NCBI RefSeq assembly: GCF_000146345.1
Contig: NZ_GL397071.1
Location: 1,287,720 to 1,351,719 of the forward strand
DNA length: 64,000 nt
Source: Peptoniphilus duerdenii ATCC BAA-1640
GTDB taxonomy: Bacteria > Bacillota > Clostridia > Tissierellales > Peptoniphilaceae
Direction of reading: 5' to 3'
How positions within the stretch are numbered: the stretch's first letter is position 1; each line of letters opens with the position of its first letter. A program made the translations under genes and the position numbers. This document shows positions 6,374 to 10,877 of this stretch, piece after piece. Below the pieces are notes generated by a model that worked only from the letters and a program-made list of their open reading frames with translations, did not search any database and was not told the DNA's origin.

Positions 6374-7222
6374 ATGAAAAGATTATTAGCAATGACACTT
6401 GCCTTTGTACTTACAATCGGTACAATTTCATTTGCAAAAGAGAACAAGGAAGCCGTAGGATACGAAAGAGTATTCGGAAAAGTTACAGAAGTTGTAGAGG
6501 ATAAGGACAACTCACAAATCTTGGTAGAAAGCAAAGATCAAGAAAAATCAATGGAAAAACTCTACCTTTACACCGGAAAAGTTCCTGTACTCGATCTAAA
6601 GACTGGTAAATTTGTAGAAAATTATAAATTTAAAAAGGGAGATATGATTCAGTACTTTTATAAAAAGGATGCTCCAATTATGTTATCTATGCCAGCTAAA
6701 TTAAACCCTGACTTCATAGCAATAAATGCTGAAGATGGAGAATATTCAGTTGACGTGGATCACTTCAATGAAAAGGGCAGAGGAGTTTCAAATAGAGTTG
6801 AAATCAATCTTTCAGATGACTCAAAAGTTATGAATCTAAAAGGAGAAGAAGTAGGCAAATTCCAAGAAGGAGACTATTCAGTTATCTATAAAACTGCAAC
6901 TAGAAGCATGCCACCTATTGTAGACGCTGAAAAGATAGTAGCATTAGAAGCAAAAGCTGAAGACTCTGCAGAAAAAGAAGAAAAAAATATCGCTTTAAGA
7001 AAATACTACGAAGAACTCGGTGCAAAAGTTGAATGGAATAAAGAAACTAGAACAATCAAAATTTCTTCAAAAGATAAATCTGTAGAAATTGACGTTAAAA
7101 GAAAAGAACTAACCATCGAAGAAAAAGTAATGATGATGGAAGGATTTAAAATTGAAAAGGGAACAAGTTTAGTTCCAGAGCAATTTATAAATAAAATAGA
7201 TAAATTTCTTCTAAATAAATAA
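6374..7222 (+). CDS. Secreted protein with C-terminal copper-amine-oxidase-N-like module
   Basis: 282 residues starting with a clear signal peptide (MKRLLAMTLAFVLTIGTISFA, cleavage after about residue 21). The middle is a beta-rich region with no family I recognise. The last ~70 residues (RKYYEELGAKVEWNKETRTIKI ... GTSLVPEQFINKI) match the copper amine oxidase N-terminal-like stalk domain that many Clostridia and Tissierellia attach to exported proteins. No catalytic oxidase domain is present, so no enzymatic activity is implied. AAGGAGG lies 6 bases before the ATG; a terminator follows. Confidence 0.8.
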   Translation: MKRLLAMTLAFVLTIGTISFAKENKEAVGYERVFGKVTEVVEDKDNSQILVESKDQEKSMEKLYLYTGKVPVLDLKTGKFVENYKFKKGDMIQYFYKKDAPIMLSMPAKLNPDFIAINAEDGEYSVDVDHFNEKGRGVSNRVEINLSDDSKVMNLKGEEVGKFQEGDYSVIYKTATRSMPPIVDAEKIVALEAKAEDSAEKEEKNIALRKYYEELGAKVEWNKETRTIKISSKDKSVEIDVKRKELTIEEKVMMMEGFKIEKGTSLVPEQFINKIDKFLLNK

Positions 7223-7226
7223 AAAT

Positions 7227-7254
7227 AATGGTGTACAATGTGCACCATTTTTTA
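7227..7254 (+). terminator. Intrinsic terminator
   Basis: Stem AATGGTGTAC / GTGCACCATT (one G-T pair) with loop AAT, followed by TTTT, just after the stop codon at 7222. Confidence 0.85.
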
Positions 7255-7336
7255 ATTTGAATTATGAAATCGTTTTATAAATATGTTTTTTTGGGTAAAA
7301 TATAAATAGAGATTTTAAAAACATAAAGGAGTTGTC

Positions 7337-7780
7337 ATGGAAATAATTGAAGTAAGAGACGATTCACAAAAGAAAGAACTGCTTGACTATTTGCCAAATG
7401 TTAAATGGGGCGAATCACAGGTGCTCACCAAGGCGATTAAAAACGATGAGATTGATGAAAAACTTGGAAAAGATGCCAAGATTTTCTACGCCAAAGAAGA
7501 TGGAGAAGTGATGGGATTTTTCACATTGGTAAACCAAGATTACATTCCACTTCCACAGTACGATAGATTTATCGCGATGATCTATGTAGATCCTAAATAT
7601 AGAAACAGAGGATACTCAAGAGAGTTTATAAAATTTGCAGAAGAAGCAAGTGGAGTAGATACCATCCATCTATTTACGAAGATCAAGGGACTTTATGAAA
7701 AGATGGGGTACACATTAATTGAAGAGTTGGTAGGCTACATACATGGAATAGACTATCTATATGAAAAAAAATTAAGATAA
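7337..7780 (+). CDS. GNAT-family N-acetyltransferase
   Basis: 147 residues with the GNAT acetyl-CoA-binding core: the beta4-motif A segment IAMIYVDPKYRNRGYSREFIKFA, in which Arg-x-x-Gly (RNRG) forms the pyrophosphate loop, and a late KIKGLYEKMGYTLIEE segment typical of the fold's C-terminus. It probably moves an acetyl group from acetyl-CoA to an amine; the substrate is unknown. AAGGAG lies 7 bases before the ATG. It stands alone, with a repeat element just downstream. Confidence 0.8.
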   Translation: MEIIEVRDDSQKKELLDYLPNVKWGESQVLTKAIKNDEIDEKLGKDAKIFYAKEDGEVMGFFTLVNQDYIPLPQYDRFIAMIYVDPKYRNRGYSREFIKFAEEASGVDTIHLFTKIKGLYEKMGYTLIEELVGYIHGIDYLYEKKLR

Positions 7781-7840
7781 GCGGCATTGGTGTTAATTTT
7801 AATATAAAAAATTTGCAACAGAATTTTATTTTCAGATAGA

Positions 7841-7992
7841 TTCTCTCAACTACGGTCACCCTGAGCGAACGTAGTGAGTAGGCAGTCGAGTTCGCCAAAT
7901 CAGGCTCCATGCAATGTTCCTTCTTTGGAACTCTTTGCACGAGACCTGCTACGAAATCAAAGATTTCGGCTAGGGCTTCGAACGGGTATAAC
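7841..7992 (+). repeat. Structured intergenic repeat, type A, copy 1
   Basis: First of three ~130-150-bp related copies (others at 8341-8480 and 9315-9440). It starts near GGTCACCCTGAGCG (7854-7867) and ends GAACGGGTATAAC (to 7992). Two hairpins are visible: GAGTTC...GAACTC plus CAAA/TTTG (7888-7933), and CGAAATC-AAA-GATTTCG (7952-7968). It fills most of the gap between the GNAT and DUF4177 genes. Confidence 0.8.
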
Positions 7993-8037
7993 TTTATTAT
8001 ATAAAAATCAATACAAATAAAAAATTTGGGAGGAACT

Positions 8038-8241
8038 ATGTTTACATATGAATTTGTGGATGTGGAATTAAAAGGCGGACTAAAGGCTGGTAAAACAGAT
8101 GGTTTTGAACACTGTAAAGAAGTCATAGTCGAAAAAGCAAAAGAAGGCTGGGAACTTGTACAAGTAGTGCCAGTAGGAAATGAAAAAACAGGAGTGTATT
8201 CAATCCAAAAGTACACAGTAATATTTAAAGTAGAAAAATAG
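8038..8241 (+). CDS. Small DUF4177-like protein
   Basis: 67 residues: MFTYEFVDVELK at the start and KEGWELVQVVPVG in the middle, with a C-terminal strand YTVIFKVEK. The YEF...EGWELV pattern is that of DUF4177, a family of small cytoplasmic proteins of unknown function. GGGAGG lies 6 bases before ATG 8038, which decides this start over an upstream in-frame codon. It is flanked on both sides by type A repeats. No function can be assigned. Confidence 0.75.
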   Translation: MFTYEFVDVELKGGLKAGKTDGFEHCKEVIVEKAKEGWELVQVVPVGNEKTGVYSIQKYTVIFKVEK

Positions 8242-8257
8242 ATTGGTATTAAGAATT

Positions 8258-8288
8258 AAGAGGTAGGTCATGGCTTATCTCTTTTTAA
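8258..8288 (+). terminator. Weak intrinsic terminator after the DUF4177 gene
   Basis: AAGAGGTA (8258-8265) pairs with TATCTCTT (8276-8283) around a 10-base loop, followed by TTTAATTT. Confidence 0.6.
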
Positions 8289-8340
8289 TTTAGGGTTAAA
8301 TTATTAGGGACAAATTTTACATAATTAAATTTTTCACAAA

Positions 8341-8480
8341 AATTTTCCAACTACAGTCACCCTGAGAGGCAACCGAGTTCAACAAATCAGCCTTCATTTC
8401 ATTCGGCTTCTTTGGAACTCTTTGCACGAGACCTGCTACGAAATCAAAGATTTAGGCTAGGGCTTCGAACGGGTATAACT
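8341..8480 (+). repeat. Structured intergenic repeat, type A, copy 2
   Basis: It keeps the left GTCACCCTGAG, the GAGTTC...GAACTC hairpin with an inner AGCC/GGCT pairing, GCACGAGACCTGCTACG, and the right end GAACGGGTATAAC. Its second hairpin is damaged (GATTTAGG instead of GATTTCGG). Confidence 0.8.
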
Positions 8481-8534
8481 TCTGAGGACCTAGTATAAGC
8501 AAATAAAATAATTAAAAAATAATATTAATTTAAA

Positions 8535-8552
8535 TGCTATCCGGATAGAATG
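8535..8552. repeat. Palindrome P1
   Basis: The core CTATCCGGATAG is a perfect 12-bp palindrome. P2-P4 have A/T where P1 has C/G at one symmetric pair, so the dyad survives a double change. Confidence 0.6.
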
Positions 8553-8693
8553 AGTTTAAAAAATCATCTGTACACAACCTCACCACAGTTATACCCGTTC
8601 GACTACAATGACTCAGACTGCGTCTTCGTCATTTCCGCTCAGGGTGACTGTCTTCCTTTGGTTACTTTTAGATAAGTCTAAATAATGATATGT

Positions 8694-8734
8694 TTGTAGC
8701 GGAAGCATCTTGCTTCCACAGCCGAAGGCTACAA
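8694..8734 (+). repeat. Branched hairpin sequence, copy 1
   Basis: The outer stem TTGTAGC/GCTACAA encloses GGAAGCA-TCT-TGCTTCC and a short GCC-GAA-GGC-like hairpin, giving a possible three-way junction. Copy 2 is at 9075-9116. Confidence 0.6.
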
Positions 8735-8782
8735 TAAACTTTGCAAATAATTAACACCTATCTAGCATCATCCCTCCCAACT

Positions 8783-8848
8783 GGTAATCCTGAGCGGAGA
8801 AGGCGGTAGCATTTGTAGTCGAAGGATCTTAAGTCGAATGGGTATAAC
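8783..8848 (+). repeat. Structured intergenic repeat, type C, copy 1
   Basis: Runs from GGTAATCCTGAGCGG through GTAGTCGAAGGATCTT to GTCGAATGGGTATAAC. It has the same two ends as type A but a shorter, different interior. A second copy at 9163-9211 is cut short after GAAGGATCT. Confidence 0.65.
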
Positions 8849-8910
8849 CTCTGAAGGTCAAGTCTTTGCAAATGAAATAACTTTATAAAACTATTTAATA
8901 ACTATTATCT

Positions 8911-8934
8911 CTCATGCTATACGTAGAGCATGAG
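8911..8934. repeat. Palindrome P2
   Basis: Arms CTCATGCT and AGCATGAG around the TACGTA centre; 24 bp with one mismatched pair. Confidence 0.65.
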
Positions 8935-9211
8935 TTCAAAAAATCATCTGTACACAACCTCACCACAGTTATACCCGTTCGACTACAATGACTCAGACTG
9001 TGTCTTCGTCATTTTCGCTCAGGGTGACTGTCTTCCTTTGGTCATTTTTAGATAAGTCTAAATAATGATATGTTTTGTAGCGGAAGCAACTTGCTTCCAT
9101 AGCCGAGAGGCTACAATAAACTTTGCAAATAATTAACACCTATCTAGCATCATTTCTCCCAACTGGTCATCCTGAGCGGAGAAGGCGTTAGCCTTTGTAG
9201 TCGAAGGATCT
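8915..9211 (+). repeat. ~300-bp direct repeat, copy 2
   Basis: Second copy of 8535-8830. Differences are scattered substitutions and 1-2-base indels; both large hairpins are kept. The inverted short element is at 8968-9033. Confidence 0.85.
9075..9116 (+). repeat. Branched hairpin sequence, copy 2
   Basis: TTGTAGC/GCTACAA again encloses GGAAGCA-ACT-TGCTTCC. The differences from copy 1 fall in loops rather than stems. Confidence 0.6.
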
Positions 9212-9314
9212 GACCTATATTTAAGCTACTTAAGACAAAAAAGTAAAATAACAAATGTAAATAAATATCCTAGCTTCTTTGAAATCTATTTTTCTCCTTC
9301 AAATTTTCTTTTAC

Positions 9315-9440
9315 GAGGGAGTATGGCAGTCGAGTTCTGCAAATCAGCCTTCACAAAGTTCGGCTTCTTTGGAACTCTTTGCACGAGACCTGCTACGAAA
9401 TCAAAGATTTCGGCTAGGGCTTCGAATGGGTCTAACCTCT
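9315..9440 (+). repeat. Structured intergenic repeat, type A, copy 3
   Basis: It lacks the left CCTGAGCG end but keeps the GAGTTC...GAACTC hairpin with AGCC/GGCT inner pairs, the perfect CGAAATC-AAA-GATTTCG hairpin, and a right end GAATGGGTCTAAC. Confidence 0.8.
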
Positions 9441-9480
9441 ATAGAGCAAGTCCTTTAAAATGAAACCAATAATAATCTTC

Positions 9481-9530
9481 ACGCTATACGTATAGCATCA
9501 AAAATAAACTTCATGCTATACGTATAGCAT
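9481..9530. repeat. Palindromes P3 and P4 (tandem)
   Basis: P4 (9513-9530) is the perfect 18-bp palindrome ATGCTATACGTATAGCAT. P3 (9481-9498) differs from it at one base. They follow the right end of type A copy 3, as P1 follows copy 2 and P2 follows type C copy 1. Confidence 0.75.
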
Positions 9531-9911
9531 TTAAATAAATTATACAAACATTTCCATAATAAAAAGAAATTCATCGACTTTGACAGTATCCGTCTTCGCT
9601 TGATCATAAAGATTAATTCACCAAAGATAAATGAAAGCTGATTTTTCTTAATATAGACCTTTTCAACTGACTATACCTTATTGAAATCCTTCGAATTCGA
9701 TGATATCTGTCTTTGATCATAATGACTGGTTTGAGAATACAGCGGGAGGCTCTACTTCATAAGTTTCGATAATAAATATTAAAAATTAAGCTTAAAAATT
9801 ATTCTTTTCTGTTTTTCTATTTATATTTCGGGTAACTAATAGATAAGAATATGTTTATCTTATTAGATAAATAATATTTAATATTTTAAGATAACAATAT
9901 TAGGAGGATTT
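9531..9911 (+). other. Gene-free leader upstream of the hydroxyacyl-CoA dehydrogenase gene
   Basis: No supportable open frame. Two decayed, related segments occur (around 9585-9610 and 9705-9725, both with a GTCTT...TGATCATAA pattern). The last ~110 bases are very AT-rich and contain an imperfect dyad near 9845-9875 (GATAA...TTATC). A promoter for the downstream gene must lie here, but I cannot place it with confidence. AGGAGG precedes the start codon. Confidence 0.5.
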
Positions 9912-10877
9912 ATGGAATTTAAAAAAGTTGTTGTTCTAGGAGGAGGAGTACTTGGTGTACAAATCGCTCTTATGAATGCATATACTGGTCATGACACTAC
10001 TATTTGGCTAAGAAGTGAAAGCTCTATTGGAAGGGCTGAACCTAGAATAGCTCACTTCAAAGAGGAAATGCTAAAATCTCTCGAAGAATCAAAGGCTTTA
10101 ATAAAAAATCCAATGGGAGGATACCTATATCCACGTGGACTTGTTAAAGTATGGGAAGGAACTACTGAAGAAGATATAAACAAATTAATTAAAGACGCAA
10201 AAATAAATTTTGAAAAAAATCTTCATTTAGAGCTCGATATAAATAAAGCTTTAAAGGACGCAGATATTGTCATCGAATCTATGACTGAAGATCCTGCTGC
10301 AAAGATTGAGTTGTATGAAAAAATTAGAGATATTCTAGATGACAAGACTATACTTGTTACAAATTCATCTACACTTCTACCATCTCAATTTAAAGATCAC
10401 ACTGGTAGACCAGAAAAGTATATGGCTCTTCATTTTGCTAATATTATTTGGAAAAATAATACTGCTGAATGCATGGGCCATGATAAAACATCTAAAGAAG
10501 TTTACGATGCTGTTGTTAGATATGCTTCAGAAATGAATATGATACCTATCAAGCTTCACAAAGAACAACCTGCATATGTTTTAAACTCTCTACTAGTTCC
10601 ACTTTTGTATTCTGCTCAAACTCTTTGGGCTAAGGAAGTGGCTGATCCTGAAACCATCGACCTTACTTGGAGGCTTGCAACTGGTGCACCAGCAGGTCCT
10701 TTCCAAATTATTGACGTGGTTGGACTAGATACTGTGTACAGCATTCAAAATATGAAGCCTTCCTCTAAAGATCCTAACTCAATTGATTACAAGATTTTAA
10801 ACATGATCAAGGAAAAGATTGATAAAGGAGAAAAAGGAGTAGCTGCTGGCAAAGGTTTCTATGACTATAGTAAATAG
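9912..10877 (+). CDS. 3-hydroxyacyl-CoA dehydrogenase (3-hydroxybutyryl-CoA dehydrogenase-like)
   Basis: 321 residues. The N-terminal NAD-binding Rossmann motif is VVVLGGGVLGVQIA, then IESMTED and NSSTLLPSQF, the catalytic-His region LHFANI, and the 3HCDH C-terminal domain with YVLNSLLVPLL, IDVVGLDTVYSI and GKGFYDY. The reaction is NAD(P)-dependent interconversion of 3-hydroxyacyl-CoA and 3-oxoacyl-CoA, as in butyrate formation or beta-oxidation. The usual partners (crotonase, thiolase, acyl-CoA dehydrogenase) are not adjacent. The HFxNP motif reads HFANI, so the substrate may differ from classical Hbd. It is flanked by the repeat region and a terminator, so monocistronic. Confidence 0.88.
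   Translation: MEFKKVVVLGGGVLGVQIALMNAYTGHDTTIWLRSESSIGRAEPRIAHFKEEMLKSLEESKALIKNPMGGYLYPRGLVKVWEGTTEEDINKLIKDAKINFEKNLHLELDINKALKDADIVIESMTEDPAAKIELYEKIRDILDDKTILVTNSSTLLPSQFKDHTGRPEKYMALHFANIIWKNNTAECMGHDKTSKEVYDAVVRYASEMNMIPIKLHKEQPAYVLNSLLVPLLYSAQTLWAKEVADPETIDLTWRLATGAPAGPFQIIDVVGLDTVYSIQNMKPSSKDPNSIDYKILNMIKEKIDKGEKGVAAGKGFYDYSK

Follow-up and report, generated by a model that had tools for sequence, protein, structure and literature searches.

We examined a cluster of interrelated repeats at positions 7841-9540 of a 64,000-nucleotide stretch of the Peptoniphilus duerdenii ATCC BAA-1640 genome (hereafter the window, whose numbering we use; it is 1287720-1351719 of contig 1 in genome G000 of our labelling, in which G denotes genomes and L loci; genome size 2.12 Mb). 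The cluster is a patchwork of dispersed palindromic elements, of which there are three kinds: repetitive extragenic palindromic (REP) hairpins of the form GTCA(T/C)CC..GGGT/GGAT (type i), often joined in pairs as REP doublets forming hairpins (REPINs); GTAGCGGAAGC-type hairpins; and type A, here called R1, a 98-nt two-hairpin element located within the loops of other hairpins. We propose that the cluster is probably a nest of non-autonomous REPs and REPINs of the CGTC kind, GTAG-type hairpins and R1, and that the autonomous form of this system carries a small GIY-YIG nuclease that spreads it. The nuclease is likely a new kind of partner for REP and REPIN repeats and the driver of the system in the window, which is a fossil-rich example of it.

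The window holds two pairs of inverted type i REPs around a short spacer (8353-8651 and 8784-9031), and this arrangement, which defines a REPIN, occurs in many copies: the paired unit (167 bp) is matched fully or in part at 32 places in this genome, at 12 of them over most of its length, and nowhere in 60 relatives including the one congener searched. The densest repeat cluster of the genome (67-92 kb) contains two 99-residue GIY-YIG genes whose proteins are 95% identical, and each gene is enclosed by inverted type i hairpins. Once the gene is removed, the stretch from hairpin to gene (..GGGTATAACCCTGGTGAGGT..GATGATT..) and that from gene to hairpin (TTGCAAAGACTTGACCTTCGGAGGTTATACCC..) together form the REPIN spacer. 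The ends of the GIY-YIG element recur in the window spacers, 8481-8587 and 8849-8967: one end is 95% identical over 40 bp, the other 93% identical over 30 bp. This goes beyond the preliminary description of the cluster: the units are nested REP-type hairpins, and their autonomous partner likely lies elsewhere in the same genome. The parts of the cluster are as follows.

7852-7993, plus strand: type i (CGTC-like) REP hairpin with R1 in its loop; left half GTCACCCTGAGCGAACGTAGTGAG, right half CGAACGGGTATAAC (sequence and R1 model).
7882-7979, plus strand: R1 copy 1, hairpins H1 and H2 joined via a CAC/CAT linker (R1 covariance model, 96.4 bits; covariation).
8038-8241, plus strand: gene for a DUF4177 protein of 67 residues (Pfam PF13783, E 2.9e-14), separating the first REP/type A copy from the rest of the cluster.
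8353-8480, plus strand: type i REP whose loop holds R1 copy 2; left REPIN arm (sequence comparison and R1 model).
8369-8466, plus strand: R1 copy 2 (R1 covariance model, 90 bits).
8481-8587, no strand assigned: REPIN spacer with an inner palindrome at about 8533-8550; its right end (8577-8606) is 93% identical over 30 bp to one GIY-YIG element end.
8588-8651, minus strand: type i REP, inverted, with an inner hairpin in its loop (sequence comparison).
8693-8732, no strand assigned: type ii (GTAG-type) hairpin GTAGCGGAAGCA..TGCTTCC..AGCCGAAGGCTAC (sequence comparison).
8784-8848, plus strand: type i REP CCTGAGCGGAG..GAAGGATCT..GAATGGGTATAAC (sequence comparison).
8849-8967, no strand assigned: REPIN spacer with an inner palindrome at about 8914-8931; 8832-8871 matches the right GIY-YIG element end on the minus strand (95% identity over 40 bp).
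8968-9031, minus strand: type i REP, inverted (sequence comparison).
9074-9113, no strand assigned: type ii (GTAG-type) hairpin, second copy (sequence comparison).
9166-9217, plus strand: type i REP GTCATCCTGAGCGGAG..GTCGAAGGATCTGACC (REP hairpin detector).
9326-9423, plus strand: R1 copy 3; its left flank is unrelated (type iii), and on its right is a type i REP half at 9422-9436 (R1 covariance model, 96 bits).
9479-9530, no strand assigned: palindrome ATGCTATACGTATAGCAT (18 bp) in two copies, of which the first carries one change (sequence comparison).

The GIY-YIG protein is a bare domain (PF01541, E 1.8e-16) in which Y6, Y17, G19, R26, R27 and E64 are invariant among five aligned copies; we take the conserved Tyr, Arg and Glu to be the catalytic positions. 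The congener has two PF01541 matches only, of 88 and 617 residues, which are presumably YazA-like and UvrC genes, as their lengths would suggest. Genomes G003 and G092 have extra GIY-YIG copies with other REPs as their flanks, on just a single side for one of the G092 copies, and these REPs have 42 and 47 matches in their respective genomes. In genome G017, a small GIY-YIG open reading frame (ORF; L191:2005-2253) lies within a 23S rRNA gene, according to an rRNA model match, between the inverted repeats GCCGAGCACTTAACTTTAT and ATAAAGTTAAGTGCTCGG, and its sequence recurs at a second place, L192; the L191 region looks like an intervening sequence carrying a nuclease gene.

CGTC-tagged REPs, including Neisseria dRS3 and Rickettsia RPE-4 and RPE-6, were surveyed by Di Nocera in 2013 (PMC3733652, consulted in part). 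According to that part, the superfamily is marked by an unpaired CGTC (or TGTC/CCTC) tag, a stem of 8-9 bp starting with AT and a CCA-like tail; the repeats 'lack a dedicated transposase', and no dedicated enzyme is reported there. The window REPs resemble them in being short intergenic hairpins that start with GTCAT.., end with ..AT and stand mostly in head-to-head pairs, whereas they differ in that type i also has the form GTCACCC..GGGT, in their long, variable loops and in the lack of a CCA tail, their ends being ..GGATCTGACC or ..GGGTATAAC. The GTCATCC..GGAT copy at 9166 has a perfect stem of only 5 bp, compared with the 8-9 bp of CGTC REPs, and the other copies read GTCACCC..GGGT. Because the CCA-like tail is missing, we call the window REPs CGTC-like and do not file them as members of the superfamily. 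PMC3733652 contains none of the words Firmicutes, Clostridi- and Finegoldia.

The association of GIY-YIG genes with CGTC-type REPs extends across phyla. A profile of the five GIY-YIG proteins was compared with 84,980 genomes, and the best 80 of at least 470 confirmed loci, ranked by protein similarity only, span Clostridia, Rickettsiales, Chloroflexi, Bacteroidota, Patescibacteria and more; a few of the 80 are non-independent, coming from the same contig, the same metagenome-assembled genome or near-identical sequence. Short flanks removed two loci from the hairpin counts and three from the flank-match test. With a detector that requires GTC and then a stem of at least 5 bp starting with AT, a CGTC-type hairpin was found within 250 bp of the gene in 63 of 78 loci and on both sides in 42, compared with 37 and 2, respectively, of 323 other ORFs of at least 90 residues in the same loci. 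As a second control, the top PF01541 match was taken from each of 23 family genomes; these genomes are distinct from those of the 80 loci, the matches mostly belong to another GIY-YIG subfamily as read, and a hairpin was found in two cases and on both sides in none. Inverted exact matches of at least 14 bp between the two flanks were present at 26 of 77 loci; the controls gave 1 of 330 for other ORFs and 5 of 231 for re-paired flanks. REP sequences vary between organisms yet agree within one locus.

A GIY-YIG gene stands between CGTC REPs in Azospirillum lipoferum, S. meliloti (where the downstream REP has an extra base) and Neisseria; these three and N. aromaticivorans are listed as CGTC REP carriers in the part of PMC3733652 consulted. 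The N. aromaticivorans locus is detector-negative and has CGTCGCCCCGTGC..GCACGGGGC palindromes on both sides by eye. A plasmid collection yielded 25 records, 14 of which were read; by listing, two of the other 11 resemble two positive loci and nine resemble L302 or L306. Among the 14, the 5-bp detector finds a hairpin in 11, on both sides in eight. L306, detector-negative too, has a TCATTCCTGTG..CACAGGAAT hairpin upstream by eye, and L302 has none by eye or by detector.

The junction between sufB and sufC provides a set of empty sites. A. lipoferum 4B has the order sufB, REP pair, GIY-YIG gene, REP pair, sufC, while in the 11 other Azospirillum records among the matches listed (89 to 96% identity) sufB and sufC match and the middle block is absent. 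In the four of these 11 that were read, the gap measures 55 to 129 bp and holds neither a GIY-YIG gene nor these REPs; strain B510 has a different palindrome in the gap. Miniature inverted-repeat elements of DDE transposons have terminal inverted repeats and a target-site duplication of fixed length; here inverted ends are present, and no duplication is evident by eye at the A. lipoferum site. A GIY-YIG gene with REPs occupies the same junction in two distant alphaproteobacteria, A. lipoferum (L298:1357-1975) and Shinella sp. PSBB067 (L310), reflecting either shared ancestry or a preferred site. A further candidate empty site, on a Rhizobium plasmid, was unusable, its flanks being an insertion sequence (IS) and a distant gene.

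REPIN matches gather around the nuclease genes. In this genome, 9 of the 32 lie at most 700 bp from a GIY-YIG gene; of the 23 that remain, 16 are no more than 10 kb away from one (P about 0.009 against random positions), the queries having been taken from beside nuclease genes, which favours local matches. Within the same distance, the proportions were 8 of 41 in G003 (P 0.006) and 1 of 44 in G092 (P 0.28).

Several observations weigh against a GIY-YIG nuclease as the driver of these repeats. The 10-kb clustering is significant in only two of the three genomes, and at 50 kb it is marginal in this genome (P 0.049) and has P values of 0.11 in G003 and 0.07 in G092. Requiring a 6-bp stem lowers the count of hairpin-bearing loci to 21 of 78, versus 3.0% of control windows (6.6% at 5 bp); stems of 7 and 8 bp leave 13 and 13 of 78, still enriched over 1.7 and 1.0%. 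The detector finds no hairpin at 15 of the 78 loci, some of which visibly have one of another stem, and at 3 of the 14 plasmid-collection loci, two of which have apparent near-duplicates in 9 of the 11 unread records. Recurrence of flank 18-mers in the same 12-kb piece is weak, at 11 of 75 loci versus 18 of 327 controls. Genome G009 is rich in R1, its PF01541 matches number just two, and Y1_Tnp is unmatched there; R1 therefore does not have to rely on this nuclease. Finally, no target-site duplication is defined, and the activity of the GIY-YIG protein is a prediction from its sequence.

The small nuclease might instead be useful to its host, or addiction-like, and resolve REP cruciforms, with REPs gathering beside it for protection or regulation and not being moved by it. 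The protein is a minimal GIY-YIG domain whose nearest solved relatives are UPF0213 proteins (1zg2, E 6e-4), and the part of PMC1564403 consulted groups UPF0213 and other standalone prokaryotic GIY-YIG proteins as structure-specific with Slx1, a nuclease acting on branched DNA; that part contains no discussion of a REP-linked subfamily. We nevertheless consider this explanation unlikely. By length, neither PF01541 match of the congener is such a gene; the gene's position differs between genomes, it appears as an insert at the sufB-sufC junction, bordered by REPs at either end, and P. duerdenii has it duplicated along with its REPs. The varied position, the insertion and the duplication are traits of a mobile gene.

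Another possibility is that the REPs and REPINs are moved by a REP-associated tyrosine transposase (RAYT) or another transposase of the IS200/IS605 type, the GIY-YIG gene being cargo caught between REPs. In the REPIN-RAYT system, which Bertels and Rainey reportedly described in 2011, inverted REP pairs with a spacer occur in many non-autonomous copies and have a single-gene partner flanked by the same REPs. The system described here is similar in all of these features, whereas its partner is a small GIY-YIG nuclease (about 95 residues) that has no relation to the HUH/Y1 transposase. GTAG-type hairpins are present in the window (8696 and 9077), and Y1_Tnp (PF01797) has a match in 7 of 12 genomes searched, six over the cut-off, including the R1-bearing G032, where R1 is present together with an intact Y1 gene. 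No intact Y1_Tnp was found in this genome; there is only a remnant of 33 aligned positions with two stops, below the cut-off (contig 1, 1142882-1142980; L090), which is possibly that of a former partner of the GTAG-type hairpins. The R1-bearing genomes G009, G012 (81% complete), G019 and G036 have no Y1_Tnp match. Given that PF01797 is degenerate here and unmatched in those four genomes, we rejected a RAYT acting in trans as the main mover, although G032 and some other genomes do have this family. Chance cargo, moreover, would not recur beside different REP sequences across phyla, and no transposase gene flanked by CGTC REPs was found according to the part of PMC3733652 consulted. This explanation appears quite improbable.

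Other known systems share some features with the one described here. As in GIY-YIG homing endonuclease systems, a small nuclease gene is carried by the element it may spread, and the site is empty in relatives; unlike in those systems, there is no intron or intein, each genome has many sites, hairpin repeats form the ends, and the minimal domain is without the NUMOD domains of homing enzymes (PMC1564403, in the part consulted). Like BOX and other Gram-positive modular repeats, the cluster is made of mosaic, nested intergenic modules; as compared via Rfam only, no family matched. In a literature search confined to open-licence papers without preprints, no link of GIY-YIG to REP, REPIN, dRS3 or RAYT appeared in the titles or abstract openings of the matches listed, and prior mention elsewhere is possible. 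The text of a 2025 REP survey (PMC12306157) contains none of GIY, RAYT, nuclease or transposase, and the part of a Moraxella paper (PMC9465073) consulted names RAYT and GIY-YIG only as separate rows of a gene table.

The cluster has a GNAT gene (7337-7780) on one side and a 3-hydroxyacyl-CoA dehydrogenase gene (9912-10877) on the other. The preliminary description, which read it as interrelated, structured repeats filling gene-free DNA and as non-autonomous if mobile, is confirmed as an observation, with one correction, and supported in its interpretation. Three type A copies (7881-8031, 8368-8518 and 9325-9475) are present as described, the outer two being 75% and 81% identical to the middle one. 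The direct repeats of about 300 bp resolve into 8523-8695/8903-9075 (92%) and 8726-8829/9108-9211 (95%), with a spacing of 380-382 bp. The four palindromes are of the ATGCTATACGTATAGCAT kind, at about 8533, 8914, 9480 and 9512, some of them imperfect; two of the four (8533-8550 and 8914-8931) lie inside REPIN spacers. The type C elements had been named without a definition; further shared units do exist, namely GTAGCGGAAGCA..TGCTTCC hairpins at 8696 and 9077 and CCTGAG..CGAA(C/T)GGGT hairpins. The DNA is gene-free at 8242-9911 and not throughout, as the DUF4177 gene occupies 8038-8241. The coding density elsewhere is indeed high (91% for the window, 95% outside 7781-9911, with a simple ORF caller), and no transposase is encoded among the ORFs seen around the cluster. 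A one-off local duplication, which would have contradicted the description, does not fit the data: the first type A stretch has 61 matches in the genome and the direct repeat 161, type A is present in many related genera, and aligned type A copies covary strongly in a covariance model. The repeats are not due to chance, because the same units recur across the genome; no further direct copy of at least 40 bp was detected within the window. At the start of the window, three 54-bp coding repeats (455-859) are SLH-like by eye.

Type A, or R1, sits mostly in hairpin loops. We aligned 46 copies from examined stretches of the P. duerdenii genome, and they share a sharply bounded core of about 98-101 bp, next to which stand flanks of several kinds. 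Both flanks are type i (GTCACCCTGAG | CGAACGGGTATAAC) in 24 copies, both type ii (GTAGCGGAAGCA..TGCTTCC..AGCCG | CGCTCTAC) in seven and both type iv in two; six copies have mixed i/ii flanks, which suggest recombination between copies, and seven have other or masked flanks. In the examined stretches, 134 strict-pattern type i hairpins lack the R1 core and 14 have it, and the core-less ones bear many different small inner hairpins at the same position. The location in loops follows from the matching flank types together with these common core-less hairpins. Likewise, in G003, 8 of 18 R1 copies stop exactly at the start of that species' REP half, six of these eight being in one tandem array; the claim is based on these copies and on the 46 copies for which both flanks were named. 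R1 also lies within a GGGCGAC..GTCGCCC hairpin in G032, which belongs to another genus, by eye. At L115 of the same genome, nesting is two-way by eye: a GTAG-type hairpin is inserted in the loop of R1 H1, and other R1 copies lie in the loop of that hairpin. An energy test of the flank stems was uninformative (-7.5 vs -8.0 kcal/mol, re-paired flanks scoring alike), because the flanks derive from few REP families.

R1 is a structured family. The covariance model, built on the core, consists of hairpin H1, a linker and hairpin H2; it matches 71 of 120 family genomes, this one included, in 25 of 39 genera at E up to 1e-3, the E-values being rough owing to short calibration, and many of the 71 have one or two weak matches each. 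Among 196 genomes drawn from the class, seven have a match at E of 1e-5 or below; four of these seven lie outside the family and hold 1 to 3 copies apiece. Pairing holds in 93% of cells across 103 distinct copies, and each of the 24 modelled pairs changes on both sides, with replacements such as C-G for A-U plain across many copies; one pair (columns 113-181) is unpaired in 61 of 102 copies. The covariation score was 0.331, whereas shuffles gave 0.104, with 0 of 500 reaching the observed value, and slid partners gave no more than 0.095, on an alignment fitted to the structure and with related sequences, which inflate such scores. A single sequence also folds better than its shuffles (z of -2.6 and -3.2 for the two strands). 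Rfam gave no match at E up to 1 over 7000-10500.

The genomic sites of R1 are diverse. It adjoins 5S rRNA genes in four genomes (L147, L149, L151 and L152), on the strand opposite to the rRNA, and in two of them (G092 and G115; L147 and L149) it occupies the 23S-5S spacer; a location inside 23S rRNA was rejected accordingly. Tandem arrays comprise six copies with a 300-bp period in G003 (L200:4145-5723) and five with a 98-bp period in G029 (L154:873-1359). When ORFs around R1 at 55 loci were clustered, no companion gene was common to many loci. The clusters with most members, at 3 to 5 loci each, represented reading frames of the repeats themselves, rRNA, orthologues, a resolvase-like protein (four loci in four genomes) and an IS3-like transposase (three loci in two genomes); the last two, named from reading, look like shared mobile elements. 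A 121-nt R1 variant (55-56 bits) occurs in four genomes (L153, L156, L157 and L158), near a resolvase-like gene in each, and is possibly R1 carried on one shared mobile element. An integron-like attC array was considered as ACCTAAC/GTTAGGT recalls attC core boxes, and it was dropped on gene context alone, because the copies flank ordinary genes in both orientations; translations of neighbours read as dnaK, clpB, uvrC and pilus genes, with no family search.

That the units are structured RNAs or signals for transcription or mRNA stability, kept for function and multiplied by selection rather than mobility, would agree with the covariation, the folding and the rRNA-adjacent sites of R1, yet it is highly improbable, since the species-specific REPINs missing from the congener searched, the nesting in other repeats and the tandem arrays fit mobile DNA, palindromic DNA elements covary too, and no Rfam family was matched.

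We return to the GIY-YIG nuclease as the probable agent of spread. The cluster would be an old, nested accumulation of non-autonomous REP and REPIN hairpins of the CGTC kind, and the autonomous CGTC-type REPIN would be the same hairpin pair with the small GIY-YIG gene in its spacer. The nuclease may cut hairpins or cruciforms formed by REPs of its own family, or DNA close to them, or sites resembling its own REP. Repair of the break may then place there a copy of the REP or REPIN, which may or may not include the nuclease gene. The outcome would be homing-like spread without a transposase, partly local and often into hairpin loops, giving rise to mosaics like 7841-9540; R1 may be moved by this or by another enzyme. 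Such a cut-and-repair route would account for the inverted ends, the local clusters, the loop preference and the missing transposase.

CGTC-type REPs are widespread, their mover was left open by the 2013 survey, and a small nuclease beside or between the repeats makes the question testable. A broader proposal seems to us possible rather than probable: that a class of mobile elements over many phyla uses a GIY-YIG nuclease of about 95 residues, alone, to disperse hairpin repeats via cutting of hairpins or cruciforms and repair copying, that CGTC-type REPs, ranging from Neisseria dRS3 to those of alphaproteobacteria and perhaps to Rickettsia RPE, have their missing driver in this nuclease, and that R1 is a structured parasite specialised for such loops. 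R1 itself adds a structured repeat family with strong covariation and no counterpart in Rfam over the region searched. If the proposal is true, it would reveal a transposase-free route of DNA spread, explain intergenic mosaics such as that of P. duerdenii and provide a family of small hairpin-directed nucleases.

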